Below are positions 22,692 to 36,652 of a DNA stretch of 36,652 nt, piece by piece (within the stretch, counting starts at the first letter, position 1; the number at the start of each line of letters is the position of its first letter). The notes beneath the pieces were generated by a model. The model was not told where the DNA came from, searched no databases, and saw only the letters and a list, made by a program, of their open reading frames with translations. The translations under genes were made by a program, and so were the position numbers. The stretch is from Actinomycetota bacterium (GTDB lineage Bacteria; Actinomycetota; Thermoleophilia; RBG-16-64-13), in the NCBI GenBank assembly GCA_023483915.1, contig JAMDEO010000150.1:1-36652 (forward strand), in the 5' to 3' direction.

Positions 22692-25600
22692 ATGGGACCA
22701 GGCATGGCCGGTGAGGAGTACTATCGCGATCGCTGGCATCATGACAAGGTCGTCCGCTCCACTCACGGCGTGAATTGCGGCGGGTCATGCTCATGGGACA
22801 TATTTGTCCGCGACGGACTCATCACGGGGGAACAACCGGCGGGGGACTATCCCCAGACGGGGCCCGGTTGTCCCGATTACGAGCCCCGTGGCTGCCCGCG
22901 CGGAGCGGTCTCGTCCTCCTATTCCTACAACAGCGGAAGGATAAAGCACCCCTATGCCCGCGGTGTGCTTCTGGAACTCTGGCGCCGGGCTAGGCAGACC
23001 TACGACGACCCGGTGGAGGCCTGGGCGAGCATTGCCCGAGATCCCGGGAAAACTGCCCTCTATGTCGCCTCGCGGGGCCATGGCGGGTTCGTCAGGATTT
23101 CGTGGGACGAAGCCTTGGAAATCTGCGCGGCTGCGCACGTATTCACCATCAAAGAATACGGTCCCGATCGAGTGGCCGGTTTCAGTCCCGCCCCGGCGGC
23201 GTCCATCGTGTCGCAAGCAGCGGGGTCACGCTACCTCTCCCTTACCGGGGGTGCCCAGCTCTCCTACTACGACTGGCATGGAGATTTGCCCCCGGCTTTC
23301 CCTCAAGCTTTCGGAGACCAAACCGACTCACCGGAATCCGCCGACTGGTGGAATGCCGGTTTCCTGATGCTCTGGGGGACAAACCTCCCTCAGACGCGAA
23401 CCCCCGATGCCCACTTCATGGTCGAGGCGCGTTACAAAGGGCAAAAAGTAGTGGCAGTCTCGCCCGACTATGCTGAGCACGTGAGGTTCGCCGACCGTTG
23501 GTTGCAGGTGCGCCCCGGCCAAGACGCCGCGCTGGCAATGGCAATGGGACACGTGATATTCAAGGAGTTCTTTGTGGATCGCCAGGTGCCGTACTTCGTG
23601 GAGTACGTACGCACATACACGGATATGCCATTCCTGGTGTCCTTGGCCGAACACGGAGGCCATCACGTTCCCGACCGTTTCCTCACTGCGGCAGATCTCG
23701 GCGACCAGAAGGCCGAAGCTATCTGGATGCCGTTGGTCTTCGATGAGCGGACTTCACAGCCGTCGGCACCCAATGGGACACAGGGCTTTCGCTGGGCTGA
23801 GGCCGGAGAGGGGCGATGGAACCTCGATCTGGGTGACATAAGCCCGGCATTGAGTCTTCTCGGGCTCTCAGACAAGCAAGTGGACCTGGCGCTGCCGCGT
23901 TTTGACGCGGAGACCCCCGTCATCATGCATCGTTCGGTTCCCGCGTTGAAGATCAAAGGACACTTGGTCACTACCGTGTTCGACCTGCTGCTTGCGCAGT
24001 GTGGCGTCCAGCGGGGCGAGACGCTTGGTGAGTGGCCGCGGGGATATGACGACAGCCACGAGCCTTTCACCCCGGCGTGGCAAGAGCGGTTGACAGGAAT
24101 TTCCGGCGCGGCGGTCGCCGCGACTGCACGGGAGTTCGCTCGAAATGCAGAGCTCACGCGTGGCCGCTCGATGATCGCGACGGGCGCAGGGCTAAGTCAC
24201 TGGCATCACTCTGACCTGGCTTACCGGGCGATCACCACTGTCCTTGCGGCCTGCGGTTGTATCGGGCGCAATGGAGGCGGGCTCGCTCACTACAGTAGTC
24301 AACAGAAGGTCGCGCCGCTAGCCGGGTGGGCCATGGTATCGACGGCCCGCGACTGGGTAAGCGCAGCACGGCAGGTCTCGGCCACCACGTGGTTCTACCT
24401 TGCCTCGGATCAGTGGCGCTATGAGACTCGCATGGCGGGCGAAGATGAGTCGCCCTTAGCCAAAGGGCTTTTGAAAGACTTGGCGCCTGCCGACGCGTTG
24501 GTCAAGGCCGCTCGGTTGGGGTGGCAGGTACCTCAGCCGGCGTTCGATAGGAATCCCCTCAAGCTTGCTACCGATGCGGCTGCCGCCTATCGGGAGGGGA
24601 TGTACCTAAACGACTACTTGGCGGGTCAGCTCAGGGACGGAAGGCTTAGGTCGGCAGCCGAGGATCCGGACGGCCCCCCAAACTGGCCCAGGGTCCTGTT
24701 CGTCTGGCGGGCCGACCTGCTTGGAAACTCAGCCCAGGGTCACGGATATTTGCTGCGCCACCTGTTGGGCGCCGGGGAGGATGGTCTCTCCGCTGAAGAG
24801 GCTCCTGAGGGTCGACGCCCACGCGACGTGGTGTGGAGAGAATCCGCACCGGTGGGCAAGCTTGATCTGCTTGTCGATCTCGATTTCAGGCTGACCACGA
24901 CCGCCGCGTTCGCGGACATCCTTCTTCCGGCAGCGGGCTGGTATGAAAAGTGTGACCTCTGCAGCACCGACATGCATCCCTTCATCAATTGTCTCAATGC
25001 CGTCATCGCTCCGCCTTGGGAGGCAAGGACCGATTGGGACGCCTTCCGCGAGCTGGCCCGTAAGTTTTCACGCCTGGCCGAATCACATCTGGGCATCCTG
25101 GAGGACCTGGTTGCGATGGCCCTGGGGAGGGACACGCCTGCGGAGGCCTCCCAGCCTCTGGGGCGAGTGCGCGATTGGCACGACAGCGGCGCGGCGGCAA
25201 TTCCGGGACAAACGATGCCACATGTTGTGGTGGTGAGACGCGACTTTCCGGCAGTCTACAGCATGTACACCACCCTGGGCCCAAGAGCAGACGACGTGGG
25301 TTGCAGCGCGAAGGGCTTGGGCTGGGACGTGGTACCGGAGGTGGAAATGCTGCGCACCATCACCGGAACCGCAGGTGGGGGAGCGGGTGCCGGCCGGCCG
25401 CTGCTCGAGGACGACCGGCAGGTCATAGAGGCCATTCTTGCGCTATCTGGTTCAACCAACAGACGGGCAGCTTTCGCCGGGTTTGAAGCCCTCGGCAAGA
25501 GGGTGGGGCGAGACTCGTGCGACCGGGCCTGCGGTGATCCCGGTCAGCGGATCACCTGGGCAGACGTCCAGGCTCGTCCCCAAAGAGTGTACGGGAGCGC

Positions 25601-26225
25601 GGAATGGTCGGGGGAAGAATCGGCGGACCGTTCTTACTCTCCTTTCTCAAGGAATGTCGAGCGGTTGGTTCCCTGGCGCACGCTGACCGGGCGAATCCAG
25701 CTCGCGATAGACCATGAGTGGTTTAGCGAGCTGGGAGAATTCTTGCCCGGATATCGACCTCCTCTCAAGTCCGGCGACCTGAGGTCCGGACAGCTTCAGT
25801 CCGGCGAGCCGGGAGTCATGCTGAGGTATCTCACCCCGCATTCGAAGTGGTCGATCAACTCCACCTACAGTGACGATCCTCTCCTGCTGACCCTTTTCCG
25901 CGGCGGACCGGGCGTTTGGCTCTCACCTGATGACGCTTCAACGATTGGAGTTCGCGATAACGAGCGAGTCGAGATGCGGAACAGGAACGGGAGGATGGTC
26001 TGCCTGGTGGTTGTATCGCCTCGAATCCCCCGCGGGGTGTGCTATCTGTATCAAGGAGCCACACCCAACTTCCTCACAAGGATAGTCCTCAAACCGACTC
26101 ACCTCGTCGGGGGCTATGCTCAGCTGTCGTTCGCGCCCAACTACTACGGCTGCACCGGTGCCCAGCGAGACGAGCAGGTGACGGTTCGTCGCTATCCGGA
26201 CGGTCCAGAAGGTGACTTGACATGA
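22692..26225 (+). CDS. narG: Respiratory nitrate reductase alpha subunit-like molybdoenzyme (NarG family)
   Basis: [34 protein letters not shown]...[50 protein letters not shown] (Asp ligand region); [22 protein letters not shown]; C-terminal [20 protein letters not shown]. Confidence 0.93.
   Translation: [1177 protein letters not shown]
25767..25811 (+). repeat. Three 15-nt in-frame tandem units in narG
   Basis: aagtccggcgacctg / aggtccggacagctt / cagtccggcgagccg = KSGDL / RSGQL / QSGEP. Confidence 0.75.
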
Positions 26226-27703
26226 GGGTCCGGGCACATCTGATGATGGTGATGGCCTTGGACAAGTGCATCGGTTGTCACACGTGCAGCGTTGCCTGCA
26301 AACGGTCGTGGACAAGCCTCGAGGGTTCCGAGCACATCTGGTTCAACAACGTGGAGACTAAACCTGGAAGCGGCTATCCCCGGCATTGGGAAGATCGGGA
26401 ATACTGGGGCGGCGGTTGGCAGCTCGGCCCGCGGGGCGAGTTGAACCTGCGGCCGGGTGGTCGCGGAGCCAACCATGTCGATGATGCCGCCGGCAGCGCA
26501 GGCAGGTCCGGCGACGGTGCAGGCAGGCCCGGCGACGGTGTGGGCCGTTCTGGCGGTGGGTCGGGCGCTTCCGGCGGTAAGCTGGGCGCCGTTTTTCGCC
26601 GAGCCCCGCTTCGCGGTCGAGACAAGTCGGTCGCTGAGGATTACTACGAGGCTTGGACTTATGAGCCGTCGGACCTCATCGAGGCCCCCTTGACAGAGCG
26701 GACTCCGGCTGCCCGGCCGCACTCTCTGGCCACCGGCCTGCCTGTGTCGCCGCATTCAGGACCAAACTGGGATGATGACTTGGCGGGAGTGAAATCGGCC
26801 TACGAGCAAATCTTCATGCTGTACCTTCCGCGCATCTGTAATCACTGCCTCAACCCATCGTGTGTTGCCGCCTGTCCCTCGAAGGCCATCTACAAGAGGG
26901 GCAGCGACGGCATCGTCTTGGTAGACGATGGCAAATGCCGCAGCCACGGGGTCTGCCAGACCGCCTGTCCATACAGGAAGGTCTACCTGAATCGCTTGTC
27001 CGGGAAGGCGGAGAAGTGCATGTTCTGTCTCCATGGAGTGACAGAAGGAGGGTTTCCGACCCTGTGCTCGCGCAGCTGTGTCGGGCGGATCAGGAGCATC
27101 GGGGTCGTCTTATACGATGCAGATGCTGTTCCGGCAGCGGCGAAGTGGGCAACCGAGGCCGATCTGGTGGAAGTCATGCGGGGCCTGCTTCTCGATCCTC
27201 TAGACCCGGCCATCACGTCGGCGGCCGAAGCTTCGGGAGTGTCTCATAATTGGGTGGAGGCAGCCCAGCATTCGCCTGTGTACGCCCTCGCCAAGGAATT
27301 GAAGGTGGCTCTGCCCCTTCGTCCCGAGTTCCGGACTCTCCCCATGGTCTGGTATGTGCCTCCGCTATCGCCGGCAGTTGACGTGCTGGAGAAGAATGGG
27401 TACGAAGCCCAAGATCCCGACGAGGTGCTTACGGCAGTTGATGCAATGCGGGTCCCGCTTGGCTACTTGGCGGGGTTCCTGTCGGCAGGGACGCGGGCAC
27501 CTGTGGAGGATGCCTTGAGAAAGCTGGTCGCAATGCGGGGGTTGAAACGGCACCAGCAAATTTACGGCGATGATGGCACGCAGTTCGCTGAGAGGGCGGG
27601 ATTCGATCCCAACGAGCTCGAAAGGCTGTTCCGCCTGCTCGCTATCGCCGAGTCGGACACCCGCTATGTCATTCCCGCAGCCCAGCTTGAGTCTGGACCT
27701 TGA
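26222..27703 (+). CDS. narH: Respiratory nitrate reductase beta subunit-like Fe-S protein (NarH family)
   Basis: [129 protein letters not shown] overlap with narG. Confidence 0.94.
26498..26560 (+). repeat. 21-nt in-frame tandem units in narH
   Basis: gcaggcaggtccggcgacggt / gcaggcaggcccggcgacggt / gtgggccgttctggcggtggg encoding AGRSGDG / AGRPGDG / VGRSGGG. Confidence 0.8.
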
Positions 27704-27824: not shown

Positions 27825-29921
27825 ATGGACCCGACCCGCGACCCCAGCGTGACCGGGCCGGCAGAACACGCGTGGCGCATCAACGCCCTGCGCTTTCTGG
27901 CGGTGGATGCGGTCCAGCAAGCTGCCAGCGGGCACCCGGGGATGCCTTTGGGAGCCGCGCCCATGGCATACGTGCTCTGGACCAGGTTCCTCAGACACTG
28001 TCCGTCTGACCCGCAGTGGCCGAACCGGGACCGCTTTGTGCTTTCCGCAGGGCATGGTTCGGCCTTGCTCTACTCGCTGCTTCATCTGACGGGCTATGAC
28101 CTCCCCCTCGAGGAGATGCGCCGCTTCCGGCAGTGGGGAAGTCGCACGCCGGGGCATCCGGAGCGGGGACTGACGCCGGGAGTCGAGGTCACGACCGGTC
28201 CGCTGGGCCAGGGGTTCGGCAACGCGGTAGGCATGGCGATAGCGGAAGCGCATCTTGCGGCGTGGTTCAACAGGCCCGGATATCCGGTGATCGATCACTT
28301 CACGTTTGTCTTGGCAAGTGACGGGGACCTCATGGAAGGGGTTTCCTCAGAGGCCGCTTCCTTGGCAGGGGAACTTGGGCTGGGGAAGCTGATCTGTCTC
28401 TATGACGACAATCACGTGACTCTGGCCGGGGCGACGGACCTGACCTTCCGCGAGGACAAGGCCCTTCGTTTCGCGGCCTACGGGTGGCATGTGGCGACAG
28501 TGGGCGATGGCAACGACCTTGCTGCCATCGAAGCCGCCATTCGCTCGGCGCAGGAGGAAAAGGCCCGGCCTTCCATCATCATGGTCCGCACTCACATCGG
28601 CTATGGCTCACCGCACAAACAGGACTCTTTCGAAGCGCACGGCTCGCCTCTTGGCGAAGAAGAAGTGCGACTTACCAAGCAAAATCTCGGTTGGCCCGAG
28701 GAACCGCCCTTCTTCATTCCGGAAGACGTACTGGCTTTCTACCGAACGGCCATCGATAACGGGAAGAAGCTGAAAGACGAATGGCGGGCCGTCCTGGCGG
28801 CCTACAGGGATGAATACACGGAGCTGGCTGCCGAGCTGGACAGCTCCCTGTCGGGCCGCCTCCCCCTTAACTGGGATGTAGATCTGCCTGTGTTTCCGCC
28901 CGATGCCAAAGGCCTCGCGACCAGGGCGGCCTCAGGAGAGACGCTGAACTGCCTGGCTTCGCGGATCACTTCGTTATTCGGCGGCTCTGCCGATCTCAAC
29001 CCGTCTACCCTTACCGCCATGAGAGGCGCAGGCGATTTTCAGGATCCGGCGGCGACCGTCCAAGACAGGCAAGGGGCGGTCGGCGACGACTGGAGCCATG
29101 CCGGTCGGAATGTTGCCTTTGGGGTCAGAGAGCATGGGATGGGCGCCATAACAAACGGATTAGCAGCGCACGGCGGGCTGATCCCCTTTGCCTCCACCTT
29201 TCTGATCTTCTCCGACTACATGAGGCCCCCTATGCGGCTTGCCGCCTTGATGAAGCTCCATGTTGTCTACGTCTTCACCCACGACAGCATCGGGCTGGGC
29301 GAGGACGGCCCAACGCATGAGCCCGTGGAGCAGTTGGCCAACCTGCGGGCCATCCCAGGCATGACGGTCATCAGGCCTGCGGACGCAAATGAGACTGTCG
29401 AGGCATGGAAGGTTGCTGTGGAGCATGACAACGGCCCCGTTGCCTTAGTGCTGACGAGGCAGAAGGTTCCCACAATCGACCGGGACACCTTGTCCCCCGC
29501 CGGTGGACTGCGTCGGGGAGCATATGTACTTGCCGATCCAACCGACGGCGGACCGGTCGATCTTGTTCTCGTCGCTACCGGCTCCGAAGTCTCACTGGCT
29601 CTGTCCGCAGGGCGCCGCCTGGCCGAACAGGGGGTAAGGGCACGGGTGGTGTCGATGCCCAGTTGGGAGCTCTTCGAGCGGCAGGACGATGCCTACCGGG
29701 AATCTGTGTTTCCCTCCGGCCTGCGGGCCAGAGTGGCGATCGAGGCGGCATCTCCGCAGGGCTGGGACCGATACGTGGGAGCGGCGGGGGCCGTCGTGGG
29801 CGTGCGGACTTTCGGTGCGTCCGCACCGGGCGAGAAAGTGCTCGAAGAGTACGGCTACACCGTGGAGAACGCAGTCACGAAGGGCTTGGCCGTGCTGGCG
29901 GCGAGCTCCAATCACTCGTAG
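27825..29921 (+). CDS. tkt: Transketolase
   Basis: [63 protein letters not shown]-type TPP motif ([14 protein letters not shown]); [30 protein letters not shown] 27825 after GAAAGGGG. Confidence 0.97.
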
Positions 29922-29946: not shown

Positions 29947-31365
29947 GTGGACAGAGGCATCAATGACATAGGTATCATCGGGCTGGCTGTGATGGGGCGG
30001 AATCTCGTCCTCAACATCGCCGACAAAGGATTTTCAGTCGCAGCTTTCAACCGCACGACTGCAGTGACCCAGGAATTCGCGGGGACTCTTCAACCGGGGC
30101 AGAAGATACAGCCGTGCTACTCGCTCGAAGAGTTTGTGGGCGCACTCACGAAGCCGCGTGCAGTCATGATAATGGTGAAGGCGGGGAATGCCGTCGATGC
30201 CGTGATCGAAGGCCTCGTGCCGGTCCTCGAGCCCGGGGACATCATCATCGACGGGGGCAACTCCTACTTCGGGGATACTGATCGCCGCGTCAAGTCGTTA
30301 GCGGAGCGCGGCATCCATTTCCTCGGGGTGGGGATATCCGGCGGCGAGTTCGGCGCCAGATATGGCCCGAGCATGATGCCCGGGGGACCGCGGGAGGCCT
30401 ATGAGCCGGTTCGCGTGATCTTCGAGGCCATCGCGGCCAAGGCCGATGGGCAGCCGTGTGTGACCTACCTGGGGCCCGCGTCTGCCGGCCACTACGTGAA
30501 GATGGTTCACAACGGCATCGAGTACGGAGTCATGCAGCTCATCTCCGAGACTTATGCCCTGATGAAGATGGCTCTTGGCCTCACCAATGACGAGCTTGCC
30601 CGGGTATACGCAGACTGGGATGCCGGCGAACTGAACTCCTACCTCGTCGAGATCACGTCGAAGATCTTCCGCCGTCGGGACGATTCGACGGGCAGCTACC
30701 TCATCGACGTCATTCTCGGCGAAGCCGGCCAGTTGGGAACGGGAATGTGGACATCGCAAAGCGCCATGGACCTGCACGTTCCCGTGCCGAACATTGACGT
30801 CGCTGTGGCCATGCGGAGCCTTTCCGCCCTAGAGGAGGAGCGCGCCCTGGCAGCGAGACTGCTGACCAGTGTGGGCGGGGTTCCGAAGACGGCCTCCCAG
30901 CCGCATATCGAGCACGTCCGCGGTGCTCTACGGGCTGCCATGATCATCACCTACGCGCAGGGATTCGCTCATCTGCGGGTGGCCTCCAAGGCGCTGGGCT
31001 TCAACCTCAACCTTGAAGACGTTGCTGGTGTGTGGCGGGGCGGTTGCATCATCCGGGCTTTGCTGCTTCGTGACATCAAGGGGGCCTTCGAACGATCTCC
31101 TGAACTGCCGAATCTCCTGCTCGATCCGCCGCTGTCCCACGAGGTCGCCTCGCTGCGCCCTGCTCTCGCCGAGGTTGTCGGGGGCGCAACGATCTCGGGC
31201 ATCCCGGTGCCGGGGTTTATGAACGCGCTGGCCTATCTCGACGCATACCGAACGGAGTGGTTGCCTTCGAATCTCATCCAGGCACAGAGGGATTACTTCG
31301 GAGCCCATACGTACCGGCGCGTCGACCGCGACGGCATCTTCCACACGGATTGGCTGACTGAATGA
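29947..31365 (+). CDS. gnd: 6-phosphogluconate dehydrogenase (decarboxylating)
   Basis: DIGIIGLAVMGRNLVLNIADKGFSVAAFNRT; IIDGGNSYFGDTDRR; GHYVKMVHNGIEYGVMQLISETY; GTGMWTSQSAMDLHVPVPNIDVAV; GTG start. Confidence 0.96.
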   Translation: MDRGINDIGIIGLAVMGRNLVLNIADKGFSVAAFNRTTAVTQEFAGTLQPGQKIQPCYSLEEFVGALTKPRAVMIMVKAGNAVDAVIEGLVPVLEPGDIIIDGGNSYFGDTDRRVKSLAERGIHFLGVGISGGEFGARYGPSMMPGGPREAYEPVRVIFEAIAAKADGQPCVTYLGPASAGHYVKMVHNGIEYGVMQLISETYALMKMALGLTNDELARVYADWDAGELNSYLVEITSKIFRRRDDSTGSYLIDVILGEAGQLGTGMWTSQSAMDLHVPVPNIDVAVAMRSLSALEEERALAARLLTSVGGVPKTASQPHIEHVRGALRAAMIITYAQGFAHLRVASKALGFNLNLEDVAGVWRGGCIIRALLLRDIKGAFERSPELPNLLLDPPLSHEVASLRPALAEVVGGATISGIPVPGFMNALAYLDAYRTEWLPSNLIQAQRDYFGAHTYRRVDRDGIFHTDWLTE

Positions 31366-32798
31366 GGACCGGGGACTCGACAGAAAACGAAACGGCCACA
31401 TCGGAGGCGATCGTGGTCTTCGGAGTCACGGGGGACCTGGTACACAAGCAGATCTTCCCAGCCCTTCAGGGACTGGTGGCCGATGAGGGGTTGGATGTCC
31501 CGATCATCGGAGTTGCGAGGTCGGCGTGGACGGACGATGATCTACGTAACCGGGCAAAGGACAGCGTGCAAAGGGCCGGCTCTTTCGATGCAGCCGCCTT
31601 CGAGAAGCTGGCACGCCGGCTGGTCTACGTGAGGGGCGACTATGGCGCGCCGGAGACCTACTTGCATATGCGGGAGGCTGTGGGCAAGGCTAGGAATCCC
31701 GTTTTCTACATGGCCATCCCTCCCAGTGTCTTTCCGGTAGTGACCGCTGCCCTCGCGGAATCAGGGTATTCGCGGGGAGCACGGGTGATAATCGAGAAGC
31801 CCTTCGGCAGAGACCTGGCCTCTGCTGTCGAGCTTAACGAAACCCTGCATGCGCACTTCCCCGAGTCGGCCATCTTTCGGATCGATCACTTCCTGGGAAA
31901 GGAGCCCGTGCAGAACATCACTTACACTCGGTTTGCCAATTCCGTGCTCGAGCCAATATGGAATCGGGATCACATCCGCAGCATTCAGATCACCCAGGCG
32001 GAGGACTTCGGAGTTGGAAATCGGGGCGGATTCTATGAGGAGGCGGGAGCCGTCCGGGATGTCCTGCAGAATCACCTGCTTCAACTTCTCGCAATTCTGA
32101 TGATGGACCCTCCTGCCGGCAACCAGGATTCTTACGGTGTGGAGAAGACAATGCTACTGAGGGCCGTCCGGCCCCTGCGGAAGAAGAACGTCGTTAGGGG
32201 CCAGTATCAGGGCTATCGATCGGAGAAAGGCGTGGATCCGTCATCCAACGTCGAAACCTTTGTCGCGGTGCACTTGGAGGTGGATAGCTGGCGGTGGGCC
32301 GGCGTGCCGGTCTATATCCGGGCGGGCAAGAAGCTGGCGGAAAGTTCGACGGAGGCTTTCATCGAGTTCAAGCGGCCTCCCAGGGAAGCCTTTGGCGAGT
32401 CCATCACACCCTCGTCGAGCCACCTGCGGGTCCGCATCAGTCCGGATGTCTTCGTCGCTTTGGGATTGAGGGTAAAGATTCCCGGAGAACGGATGGTCGG
32501 AGAAGACGCTGAGCTCACTGTGACCTCTTGTCCGCGCGACCTCGAACCTCCCTACCAGAGGCTTCTGGCCGACGCAATGAGGGGAAAGCGGGAACTGTTT
32601 GCCAGCGAAGACGGGGTGGAGGCGTCGTGGCGAATCGTCGACCCCATTCTCAACGACCCGCCTCCGGTTCACTCCTACAGGTCGGGGAGCTGGGGCCCGG
32701 CGGAAGCACGGAAGCTCATTGGGGTCGATGGTCCCTGGATCAACCCGGCGCCCGGTGGGGAAACGACGGATCGGTCCTGCACGAGGTCCGGCACGTGA
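31362..32798 (+). CDS. zwf: Glucose-6-phosphate dehydrogenase
   Basis: VVFGVTGDLVHKQIFPALQGL; IIEKPFGRDLASA; RIDHFLGKEPVQNI; ATGA overlap with gnd. Confidence 0.96.
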   Translation: MRTGDSTENETATSEAIVVFGVTGDLVHKQIFPALQGLVADEGLDVPIIGVARSAWTDDDLRNRAKDSVQRAGSFDAAAFEKLARRLVYVRGDYGAPETYLHMREAVGKARNPVFYMAIPPSVFPVVTAALAESGYSRGARVIIEKPFGRDLASAVELNETLHAHFPESAIFRIDHFLGKEPVQNITYTRFANSVLEPIWNRDHIRSIQITQAEDFGVGNRGGFYEEAGAVRDVLQNHLLQLLAILMMDPPAGNQDSYGVEKTMLLRAVRPLRKKNVVRGQYQGYRSEKGVDPSSNVETFVAVHLEVDSWRWAGVPVYIRAGKKLAESSTEAFIEFKRPPREAFGESITPSSSHLRVRISPDVFVALGLRVKIPGERMVGEDAELTVTSCPRDLEPPYQRLLADAMRGKRELFASEDGVEASWRIVDPILNDPPPVHSYRSGSWGPAEARKLIGVDGPWINPAPGGETTDRSCTRSGT

Positions 32799-32810
32799 GG
32801 AAATGAAACG

Positions 32811-33188
32811 ATGCAGCCCGCCTGGCCACTTCTGGTGTTCGTAGGGCTGATATTGGCTCTGGTCGCATTGATCATGAGTCTGTCATACCTGCTGGGGCAG
32901 AGACAGTCGCATCGGGCCGATCTTGGGCCCTACGAATCCGGGGTGGCCGCCGCTGAGCTGCCGGCTGGCATCTCGGTGGAGTTCTATCGTCTGGCCGTCT
33001 TCTTCGTAATCTTCGACGTAGAAGCGGTGTTTCTGTTCATTTGGGCTGTGGTCGTGCGCGAGGTTGGCTGGTCAGGTTACGCCGAAATGCTCGTCTTCGT
33101 GGGAGTGCTCTTCGCGGCGCTGGTCTACCTATGGCGACTCGGGTCGCTCGACTGGCGGCAGACGCCTCGAAAGCGCAGGCAAGGATGA
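32811..33188 (+). CDS. nuoA: NADH-quinone oxidoreductase subunit A
   Basis: [51 protein letters not shown]. Confidence 0.95.
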
Positions 33189-33808
33189 TCGCGGTCCCGC
33201 CTACGTCGGGTCGCGAATCTCGCAACTCCCTCGAGGAAGTCGTTGCTCGCTCCACTCTCCTCGCCCGTCTGCAGGATCTGCTTGCCTGGTCTCGCGCGAA
33301 CTCGATTTGGCCCTTCAATTTTGGATTGTCATGTTGCTTCGTAGAGATGGCCACCAGTCTTACGCCGAAATACGACATCGCCCGGTTTGGGTCTGAAGTC
33401 ATCCGGGGGTCGCCCCGGGAAGCCGATCTCATGGTCATAGCCGGCACGGTCTTCATCAAGATGGTCCCAGTCATCCGCCGTCTCTACGAGCAGATGATGG
33501 AGCCCCGCTGGGTCATGTCCATGGGCTCATGTGCCAACTCAGGCGGAATGTACGACATATATAGCGTCGTCCAGGGTGTGGATACATTCCTGCCTGTGGA
33601 CGTCTACGTGCAGGGTTGCCCTCCCAGTCCCACGACTTTCACTCAAGGGCTGTTGCTCCTTCGGGAGGCCGTCAGCTCCGAGCGCCGCCCGCTTTCCTGG
33701 GCGGTGGGTCCTCAGGGGGTGGTGCGCCCGCCGCTGCCATCCAGGCGGGATGAGCTCAAGAAAGAGCGGGAAAAGATCGATCGGCTCAGAGCGCCGGATG
33801 AGGTCTAG
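33185..33808 (+). CDS. nuoB: NADH-quinone oxidoreductase subunit B
   Basis: [57 protein letters not shown] overlap with nuoA (start could be upstream at 33131). Confidence 0.95.
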
Positions 33809-33811
33809 CTG

Positions 33812-35548
33812 ATGGATGTCATCGACGAGCTCAAGCTGCGCTTTCCGGGGGTGACCTTCATCCGCCAGGAGGTGCGTGACGAGATTCCGACAGTGTGGGT
33901 GCCGGGGGGCTCCCTTGTGGCCGTTCTCGGCTACCTCAAAAACGAGGCAGCGGCTCCCTACCGCACCCTCTACGACCTCGCGGGCATCGACGAGCGTGTG
34001 CGACAAAACCGCGACGCACAGCCTGACGCGAACTTCACGGTGGTGTACCACCTCCTCTCGTATGAAAGAAACAATGATCTGCGGATCAAGGTAGCCCTGC
34101 AGGGAGATCATCCGTCCATTCCTACGGCCACCGGAGTCTGGGAAGCCGCCAATTGGTACGAGCGCGAGCTGTGGGACATGCTTGGTATAACCGTCGAAGG
34201 GCACTCCAACCTGCGCCGAATTCTGATGCCCCCATGGTGGGAGGGCCATCCCCTGCGCAAGGAACATCCCAGCCGGGCCACCGAGATGGGGACCTTCGCC
34301 CTCTCACCCGAGGACGACGTCCGCTTTCAGGAATCGCTCGAGGTACGCCCTGAGGACTGGGGACTATCGAGCCGCCGCCGGAATTCCCGCATGATGCTCC
34401 TCAATCTAGGTCCCCAGCATCCGGGCACGCACGGATTGTTGCGGGTAATACTCCAGTTGGAGGACGAGCGGATCGTCGATGCGGCAGTGGACATCGGATA
34501 TCACCATCGCGGCGCCGAGAAGATGGGGGAAAGGCAGACCTGGCACACATATATCCCCTACACCGACCGCGTGGACTACCTGGGAGGCGTGCTCAACAAC
34601 CTGCCGTACATTCTGGCGACCGAGAAACTTGCGGGCATCGAGGTACCCGACCGGGCAAAGGTCATTAGGGTCATGATGGCGGAATTGTTCCGCATTGCCA
34701 GTCACCTGGTTTGGTATGGGACGTTTGCCCAGGATCTTGGTGCCATTTCCCCGGTCTTCTACATGTTCAGCGACCGCGAGAAACTGTTCGACATCGTCGA
34801 GGCGATCACCGGTGGACGGATGCATCCTGGTTGGTTCCGTATCGGCGGAGTCGCGCAAGATCTCCCCACAGGGTGGGAGAAGCTGGTGAGTGACTTCCTA
34901 GACCACCTGCCTCCAAGACTCCGCGAATACGATCGCTTGGTGATGGATAGTAGGATCCTCAAGGGACGCACCCGAGGGGTCGGGGAATTGACGAAGGACG
35001 AGGCAATCGAGTGGGGGATCACCGGACCTAACCTGCGCGCCTGTGGATTCGCGTGGGATTTCCGCAAGAAGCGCCCGTATTCTGGGTACGATCAGTTCTC
35101 CTTTGATATACCGACGGCAGATCGCGGAGACTGCTACGGTCGGGCTCAGGTCAGAGTTGAAGAGATTCGCCAGAGTCTGAGAATCGTCCGCCAATGCCTG
35201 GAAATCATGCCCCCAGGGCCGTACAAAGCCGACCACATCCTGACTACCCCGCCCGACGAGAAGCGCATGTTGCACGACATCGAGACGCTAATCGCTCACT
35301 TTCTGAGCGTGAGTTGGGGTCCTGTCATACCGGCCGGCGAGGCCTTCGCCGGGATAGAGGCGGCCAAAGGAAACAATGGGTACTACCTGATAAGCGATGG
35401 CGGTGGCAGCTCCTATCAGACCCGTATCCGGACGCCGTCTTTCGCCCATCTGCAGGCCCTGCCCCTTATGGCTCGGGGGCTGGAGGTCCCCGATATCATC
35501 GCCATCTTGGGCAGTATCGACTTCGTGCTCGCCGACGTCGACCGGTGA
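33812..35548 (+). CDS. nuoC: NADH-quinone oxidoreductase fused subunits C/D
   Basis: NuoC part [40 protein letters not shown] fused to NuoD part [63 protein letters not shown]; ends [12 protein letters not shown]. Confidence 0.96.
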
Positions 35549-35588
35549 GGGCCTGCAGCAAAAGCCGGGGTTGCAGGAGGAGCACCAG

Positions 35589-36053
35589 GTGCTGACCAAG
35601 GAAGAGTTGGAGCAGATCGAGTCCGTGATTGGTCTCTACGAGACGCGATCTGCGGCGGCCGTGGAGGCGCTGCGAATCGTCCAGGACGGCCGAGGCTGGG
35701 TGTCCGACGAATCCTTGGCGGACCTCTCCCGGCATCTGGGGGTATCGACCTCCACCCTCGAGAGTCTTGCCACGTTCTACAGCATGGTTTTCCGCATGCC
35801 TGTGGGCAGGCACGTGATCATGGTCTGCAACAGTGTGTGTTGCTGGATGCAGGGTAGCGAAGATGTGACTCGGTACCTGGCCCATCGGCTGGGCCTAGAG
35901 TTGGGCGGAACCACTCCCGACGGCCGCTTCACGCTGCTTCCGGTGGTTTGCATAGGGGCCTGCGACCAGGCTCCGGCCATGCTCGTCGACTGGGAGCTGC
36001 ACGGGAATCTCACCCCGGACAAGATCGACGAGGTGCTCGCGAGATGCCCATGA
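35589..36053 (+). CDS. nuoE: NADH-quinone oxidoreductase subunit E
   Basis: AAVEALRIVQDGRGWVSDESLADLSRHLGV; ATFYSMVFRMPVGRHVIMVCNSVCCW; CIGACDQAPAML 2Fe-2S ligands. Confidence 0.93.
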   Translation: MLTKEELEQIESVIGLYETRSAAAVEALRIVQDGRGWVSDESLADLSRHLGVSTSTLESLATFYSMVFRMPVGRHVIMVCNSVCCWMQGSEDVTRYLAHRLGLELGGTTPDGRFTLLPVVCIGACDQAPAMLVDWELHGNLTPDKIDEVLARCP

Positions 36054-36652
36054 CCCGTCCGCTCACCGAGCATCTTCACCCAGACGGCCGGCCCCTCGGC
36101 CTCCACGAGTACAGGGCCGTAGGCGGATACAGGGCTCTGCGCAAGGCCCTTAACATGGCGCCTGGAGAAGTCATCAAGGCGGTGCAGGAGTCCAAGTTGA
36201 TGGGTCGCGGAGGGGCAGGCTTTCCCGCAGGCAGGAAATGGGGTTTCGTCGACACCACCGACGTGTGGGCCCGAGCGCGGTTTCTCGCAGCCAACGCCGA
36301 CGAGATGGAGCCGGGCGCATTCAAGGACCGCGTAATCATGCAAGGCAATCCGCACGCGTTGCTCGAGGGAATGGCCATCGCTGCCTACGCCATCGGGGCG
36401 GAGACGGCCTACCTTTTCTTGCGGGCAGAATACGGATCGACGGCTCGGATCATGCGGCAGGCAATCGCGGAGGCTCGCGAGGCCGGCATCATCGGTCCGC
36501 GCGTGATGGGTAAGGACTTCGCACTCGACATCCGTCTTCACGTCAGTGCCGGGCGGTACATCTGCGGCGAGGCTTCGGCGATGCTGAATGCTCTCGAAGG
36601 CGAGCGTCCAGTGCCCAGGCACAAGCCACCTCATCAGACGAGCTCCAGATCG
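36050..36652 (+). CDS. nuoF: NADH-quinone oxidoreductase subunit F, N-terminal part (3' truncated by window edge; absent from supplied ORF list)
   Basis: Manual translation, no stop to window end: MTRPLTEHLHPDGRPLGLHEYRAVGGYRALRKAL...LMGRGGAGFPAGRKWGF...AANADEMEPGAFKDRVIM...YICGEASAMLNALEGERPVPRHKPP; ATGA overlap with nuoE. Confidence 0.94.
   Translation, partial: MTRPLTEHLHPDGRPLGLHEYRAVGGYRALRKALNMAPGEVIKAVQESKLMGRGGAGFPAGRKWGFVDTTDVWARARFLAANADEMEPGAFKDRVIMQGNPHALLEGMAIAAYAIGAETAYLFLRAEYGSTARIMRQAIAEAREAGIIGPRVMGKDFALDIRLHVSAGRYICGEASAMLNALEGERPVPRHKPPHQTSSRS

Follow-up and report, generated by a model that had tools for sequence, protein, structure and literature searches.

Complex I, the entry point of respiration, is taught to be NADH-specific, and Glu183 of its subunit NuoF (Escherichia coli numbering) is a main reason. 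The DNA analyzed here (36,652 nucleotides, referred to as the window) ends within a nuoF gene for which an initial annotation had reported Ala at this position, downstream of pentose-phosphate genes, and had proposed native oxidation of NADPH. We asked whether this locus encodes a complex I that accepts NADPH. If so, the entry point of respiration would be able to switch its cofactor, NADPH of the pentose-phosphate pathway could be respired with a gain of proton-motive force and without a transhydrogenase, and engineering that has hitherto been based on single laboratory exchanges would have a natural template.

The window carries the genes for the front half of a complex I

The window represents contig C145 of a draft genome (G000; 3.2 Mb, 242 contigs, 77% complete). 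Its 3′ part carries, all on the + strand, tkt for transketolase (27855 to 29921; TIGR00232; reading frame open from 27570), gnd for an NADP-type 6-phosphogluconate dehydrogenase (6PGDH) (29962 to 31365, with homology beginning at about 29962; TIGR00873) and zwf for glucose-6-phosphate dehydrogenase (G6PDH) (31362 to 32798; TIGR00871). These genes are followed by nuoA (32811 to 33188), nuoB (33185 to 33808), a nuoCD fusion (33812 to 35548; PRK11742, above the cut-off), nuoE (35586 to 36053, with homology beginning at about 35586 and an overlap with the start of nuoF) and the 5′ part of nuoF (36044 to 36652), which comprises 203 codons from an ATG at 36044 and is open at the contig end. The gene map agrees with the initial annotation in placing tkt, gnd and zwf directly upstream of nuo in the same direction. 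Directly upstream of tkt lie narG and narH (22692 to 27703, +) for the alpha and beta subunits of a nitrate reductase; neither narJ nor narI was found between narH and tkt in the window.

Another contig of the same genome (C101, locus L039) begins with the 3′ end of a nuoF gene, followed by nuoG, nuoH, nuoI, nuoJ, nuoK, nuoL, nuoM and nuoN. This nuoF part bears the motif FCDLAP, which is diagnostic for the clade of the window's NuoF (described below). Because this motif is shared and relatives show an unbroken gene order, the two contigs very probably derive from one operon that was split inside nuoF, with about 200 bases missing. The set of 13 to 14 core subunits of complex I is complete, with nuoA, nuoB, nuoCD, nuoE and nuoF in the window and the nuoF 3′ end and nuoG to nuoN on C101.

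NuoF of the window has Ala at the position of Glu183

The NuoF fragment was assigned to complex I NuoF with its FMN- and NADH-binding fold (TIGR01959, E = 2.8e-67, below the full-length cut-off since the protein is a fragment). Its best solved relative is E. coli NuoF, which belongs to the same family, is about 47 to 50% identical over the matched part, has the same FMN and N3 motifs and is encoded in the same nuo order with a NuoCD fusion. In a gapless alignment with the solved chain (7awt_F), Ala177 of the window protein (codon GCT, 36572 to 36574, +; sequence context GRYICGEASAMLNALEGERPVPRHKPPH) is the equivalent of Glu183, as the initial annotation had counted by hand. E. coli numbering is used below unless window residues are named.

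Between the Ala177 codon and the end of the contig there are 78 bases. The final six, AGATCG (36647 to 36652), are identical to the start of a common Illumina adapter, and homologues have Gly-Leu-Trp at this point. The two terminal codons (Arg, Ser) are probably not genomic and may be an adapter remnant. They lie about 70 bases 3′ of the Ala177 codon, and an assembly or sequencing error at residue 183 was considered. The same block of pocket residues is present in seven related genomes, and such an error can therefore be regarded as excluded for all practical purposes.

Among the sequences compared, Glu183 is clearly near-universal in NuoF; it typifies complex I without being one of the features that define the family. 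It was found in 85 of 85 E. coli-type NuoF proteins, setting aside the clade described below and one Armatimonadota sequence (L080). Likewise, the best 80 NuoF relatives from a multi-phylum genome collection have GEE, bar this one Armatimonadota sequence (GEAEAL), and further clade members may exist beyond the matches listed. This tabulation bears out the initial annotation, which had called Ala at this site unusual. Genomes were also screened with degenerate DNA patterns, which are strict, so that their counts are lower bounds for rarity estimates; the broader pattern took in NuoF plus HoxF/HydB-type relatives. The Glu version gave 80 matches in 54 of 60 Pseudomonadota genomes, and the Ala/Gly version gave none in 200 genomes of this phylum. 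No true NuoF was matched by the Ala/Gly version in 149 Acidobacteriota genomes (the single match, L158, is not NuoF), and 298 genomes of the window's phylum yielded only G000, G005 and a HoxF-type paralogue (L135). The pattern CGE(A/G)-(S/T-type)-A was present in 8 of 399 genomes of the window's class, which belong to two families: f1 (G000, G005 and G017) and f3 (G034, G049, G069, G074 and G092).

The Armatimonadota sequence (L080, 4176 to 5441, from a MAG) is a separate NuoF with Ala183, Glu184, Arg71 and Tyr203, in which the carboxylate has possibly been shifted to 184 rather than lost. Having Glu at 184 and lacking His203, it is at most a possible independent case of Glu183 loss.

Ala/Gly183 proteins form a clade with a remodeled pocket

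The eight NuoF proteins with Ala or Gly at 183, from the window and seven related genomes, formed a clade with a branch support of 100/99 in a tree of NuoF proteins. The clade still held together, with a support of 93, when the columns around 68 to 79 and 180 to 212 were omitted. Ala/Gly183 is kept in both families, f1 and f3, and by this phylogeny the exchange is old, has a single origin in the sample and was retained while the NuoF proteins of the two families diverged to about 54% identity.

The clade shares a block of exchanges comprising E183A/G, T184S, K/R193 to E/D/Q, A195P, F203H, P204Q/M and G211S/A, together with Arg (6 of 8) or Gly (2 of 8) in place of L71. Wild-type E. coli NuoF differs from the clade in having Glu183, Thr184, Arg193 and Phe203 where the clade has Ala/Gly, Ser, Glu/Asp/Gln and His. 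In the window protein, the equivalents (all +) are Arg64 (36233 to 36235) for L71, adjoining the conserved Lys72; Ser178 (36575 to 36577) for T184, a position with Ser in 8/8 clade members and Thr in 85/85 others; Glu187 (36602 to 36604) for R193, where the clade is acidic or has Gln and Lys or Arg is found elsewhere; and His197 (36632 to 36634) for F203, with His in all eight. Ten of 420 alignment columns are strictly diagnostic for the clade, and seven of these fall within residues 181 to 211 (0.7 expected; p ~6e-7, a value to be read with the columns of one clade not being independent).

The FMN-binding GRGGAG, NxDExEPG, Lys72, Glu182 and the N3 motif SCGWCTPC were all kept in the clade; GRGGAG lies within the window, and SCGWCTPC is found on contig C101 and in the full-length clade members. 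In the published Thermus thermophilus structure, the equivalents of residues 183, 200 and 203 border the adenosine-ribose portion of the NADH site. As judged from the alignment, the changes are concentrated around the adenosine, with the nicotinamide/FMN end and the Fe-S clusters unchanged, and this pattern is more in keeping with a changed choice of nucleotide than with a dead site. The initial annotation was thus right about Ala at 183 and missed the conserved, concerted remodeling around it.

Candidates for holding a 2′-phosphate are Arg71, gained in 6 of 8 clade members, and His203, gained in all eight, with K/R193 being lost. An AlphaFold model of the NuoF fragment had a plausible fold (pTM 0.75); the loops around the pocket were poorly predicted, with a pLDDT below 50 for model residues 56 to 61, 88 to 91 and 193 to 203. 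No solved NADP-type NuoF homologue was found among the structures in the alignments examined. Arg71 alone was rejected as a marker of NADPH use; Lys or Arg also occurs at this site in Glu183 proteins (Aquifex NuoF and L003 of the window's genome).

Exchanges of the equivalent Glu in homologues

The reported effect of exchanging Glu183, on which the initial annotation had relied, is upheld by two systems. According to the summary given in PMC10671435, the E183Q and E183H variants of E. coli complex I have a higher affinity for NADPH. The second system is Rhodobacter capsulatus FdsB, a homologous NADH-binding flavoprotein in which E259 and L279 correspond to the 183 site and F203 (alignment of residues 16 to 197 to residues 108 to 279). 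Wild-type FdsB has no NADP+ activity; such activity was gained with E259G, E259R, E259K and E259Q, E259G being the most efficient of the tested variants, and was also seen with L279R, whereas E259D had none (PMC10671435). Adding K276A brought no improvement in NADP+ use, and NAD use was lowered in all E259 variants (PMC10671435); therefore, a pure gain of NADPH use without a loss of NADH use is not to be expected. FdsB differs from the clade proteins in belonging to a soluble formate dehydrogenase and in carrying engineered single exchanges (PMC10671435). The E. coli variants (Morina et al. 2011, J Biol Chem, as cited in PMC10671435) are likewise single laboratory exchanges, whereas the change in the clade is natural and part of a block. 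A NuoEF-like module that oxidizes both nucleotides is the HoxEFU diaphorase of Synechocystis, which prefers NADH about tenfold in kcat/Km and, unlike the protein of the window, is part of a hydrogenase rather than of complex I (PMC7363133).

Pentose-phosphate genes also accompany Glu183 NuoF

The initial annotation had explained the upstream zwf, gnd and tkt by NADPH use. As such, this adjacency was rejected as proof: gnd and zwf are likewise part of the nuo operon in relatives with GEE, and pentose-phosphate genes are missing beside nuo in several Ala/Gly members. Family f6, which belongs to the same class and has the same complex I type, carries the operon gnd-nuoABCDEFGHIJKLMN-zwf (L151, L154, L155, L191 and L192; G042, G027, G047, G052 and G062), so that its oxidative pentose-phosphate genes are operon-linked as in the window; its NuoF, unlike that of the window, has kept GEE and has Phe or Tyr at 203. 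In f6, gnd lies immediately before nuoA in these five genomes, and zwf lies after nuoN in G027, G037, G042, G047 and G052. A gnd relic of 40 residues directly before nuoA in G037 (L190, 7118 to 7280) indicates that the gnd-nuo arrangement has decayed there. In G057, tkt-gnd-zwf lie upstream in divergent orientation. Among the Ala/Gly genomes, zwf precedes nuoA in G000 and G005, an acetyl-CoA synthetase gene is found upstream of nuo instead in G017, and genes for Rieske protein, cytochrome b or oxidase are found there in G034, G049 and G092 of f3. No pentose-phosphate genes were present within 10 kb of nuoF at the best 80 loci from other lineages. In the open-access literature searched, we found no report of a pentose-phosphate-nuo operon or of a native NADPH-oxidizing complex I.

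The cofactor type of the linked dehydrogenases appears to match NuoF

The second strand of the window's Gnd ends with Asn-Arg-Thr (30049 to 30057, +), the 2′-phosphate-binding triad (Asn-Arg-Thr/Ser) of NADP-type long 6PGDHs (PMC5090862). The motif is present in 3/3 f1 genomes (FNRT in the window and G005, YNRT in G017) and aligns to the Asn-Arg of solved 6PGDHs. In f6, the corresponding motifs are FDKD, MDNV, FDKE, MDNV and YDKD; Asp replaces Asn in the five Glu183 relatives with gnd abutting nuoA and in the gnd relic of a sixth. In Thermotoga maritima 6PGDH, N32D alone removes the preference for NADP+, and N32E/R33I/T34I reverses the preference about 64,000-fold (PMC5090862). In Zwf, the Arg of GVARS (31518 to 31520, +) corresponds to E. 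coli R50, which binds the 2′-phosphate, and removal of K18 and R50 abolishes the NADP+ preference of the E. coli enzyme (PMC4807051). This Arg is found in all three f1 genomes, whereas the operon-linked Zwf proteins of f6 have neither Arg nor Lys at the R50 site, Asp at or beside it and Ala where the E. coli enzyme has K18. At that position, the window's Zwf has Thr, in common with the dual-specificity G6PDH of Leuconostoc; the NADP preference of Zwf is therefore less certain than that of Gnd.

By these motifs, each operon looks internally matched, with NADP-type Gnd and Zwf beside A/G183 NuoF in f1 and NAD-type Gnd and Zwf beside E183 NuoF in f6, although this match is essentially one evolutionary contrast and no statistical result. 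What survives of the neighborhood argument is thus the cofactor type of the operon-linked enzymes and not their adjacency. With such an operon in each of two families of the same class, the question also becomes directly testable with a few purified enzymes.

PntB was detected neither in the f1 genomes, two of which are 93 to 96% complete, nor in f6, and is present in f3; it was rejected as a correlate of residue 183.

A candidate NADPH-accepting complex I and its alternatives

The best explanation, in our view, is a naturally NADPH-accepting complex I, probably of relaxed or dual specificity, and we put its probability at roughly 55%. Counting for it are Ala/Gly183 in 8/8 clade members, the concerted block, the kept catalytic motifs, mutagenesis of homologues, the cofactor match and the lack of detectable PntB in f1, where such an enzyme would therefore fill a real need. 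On this reading, the genes of the window specify the front half of a complete complex I of the E. coli type, the NuoF of which has a remodeled adenosine-ribose pocket. The carboxylate of Glu183 normally forms hydrogen bonds with the 2′- and 3′-hydroxyls of NADH and repels the 2′-phosphate of NADPH; its loss, together with F203H and usually L71R, would allow NADPH to be accepted, with Arg71 and His203 as possible partners of the 2′-phosphate. Since neither the nicotinamide/FMN end nor the Fe-S clusters have changed, FMN would be expected to receive the hydride, and quinone the electrons by way of the clusters, in the usual manner. In f1, NADPH would be supplied by the putatively NADP-type Zwf and Gnd of the same, presumably cotranscribed, operon, and sugar carbon could pass through the oxidative pentose-phosphate pathway into respiration with no need for a transhydrogenase. 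The quinol-oxidizing NarGH encoded beside the operon may make nitrate the final acceptor. Strict NADPH use appears less likely than dual use of NADH and NADPH, given that the clade genomes examined apparently have no canonical complex I NuoF besides that of the clade and that f3 has an oxygen-type chain and PntB.

The same pocket could instead have drifted or been re-tuned for NADH, for affinity, product release or lower production of reactive oxygen species, with other residues compensating for the loss of Glu183 and the enzyme being NADH-specific in practice. The exchange of K/R193 for an acidic residue or Gln is not a change that a 2′-phosphate site would be expected to acquire, and with Arg and Gly mixed at 71 there is no obvious phosphate site. 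Also speaking against NADPH, f3 combines this pocket with PntB and, next to nuo, with a bc/oxidase chain and no pentose-phosphate genes, G017 has the acetyl-CoA synthetase gene there, and in G005, G017, G034 and G049 the clade protein is apparently the sole canonical complex I NuoF, so that NADH oxidation is probably still needed. Every tested non-acidic replacement of FdsB E259, however, led to NADP activity and weaker NAD use (PMC10671435), and Glu183 is retained nearly everywhere else; we regard re-tuning for NADH as a serious but less probable alternative. That the adenosine-end residues changed as a block, in a genome with many HoxF/NfnB-like flavoproteins, could also mean that the pyridine-nucleotide site is degenerate and that NuoF is fed by another donor, e.g., ferredoxin or a partner flavoprotein. 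Conservation of the FMN site, of the E95-type loop, of Lys72 and of every N3 cysteine, for which a dead site would have no need, makes another donor improbable.

An acceptance of NADPH need not account for the gene neighborhood. Pentose-phosphate genes might lie beside nuo for general reasons, such as a shared expression of glucose respiration, with the cofactor match being a coincidence. The gnd-nuo-zwf linkage with Glu183 NuoF in f6, the distance between the f1 and f6 Zwf proteins (34 to 37% identical) and an effective sample size of one contrast are consistent with this possibility; on the other hand, in each family Gnd, Zwf and NuoF all differ in the way that a match would predict, and coincidence seems to us a tenable minority view. 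Similarly tentative is the boldest version of the NADPH-accepting enzyme, namely, a native NADPH-preferring, proton-translocating complex I that forms one operon with an NADP-type oxidative pentose-phosphate pathway, has a sister pairing of NAD-type enzymes and NADH-oxidizing complex I in the same class, and would have switched its cofactor as a unit.

No relatives were found in viral contigs. Two further flavoproteins, one of the window's genome (L004, 1015 to 2946; contig C34) and one of another genome (L135; G629, contig C66), are of the HoxF/NfnB type, have Ser or Ala at the 183 site and have no KPPF motif (PRGKHVRTV; SPEMTLSYYPTERG); they may be additional NADP-type proteins within the NuoF superfamily.
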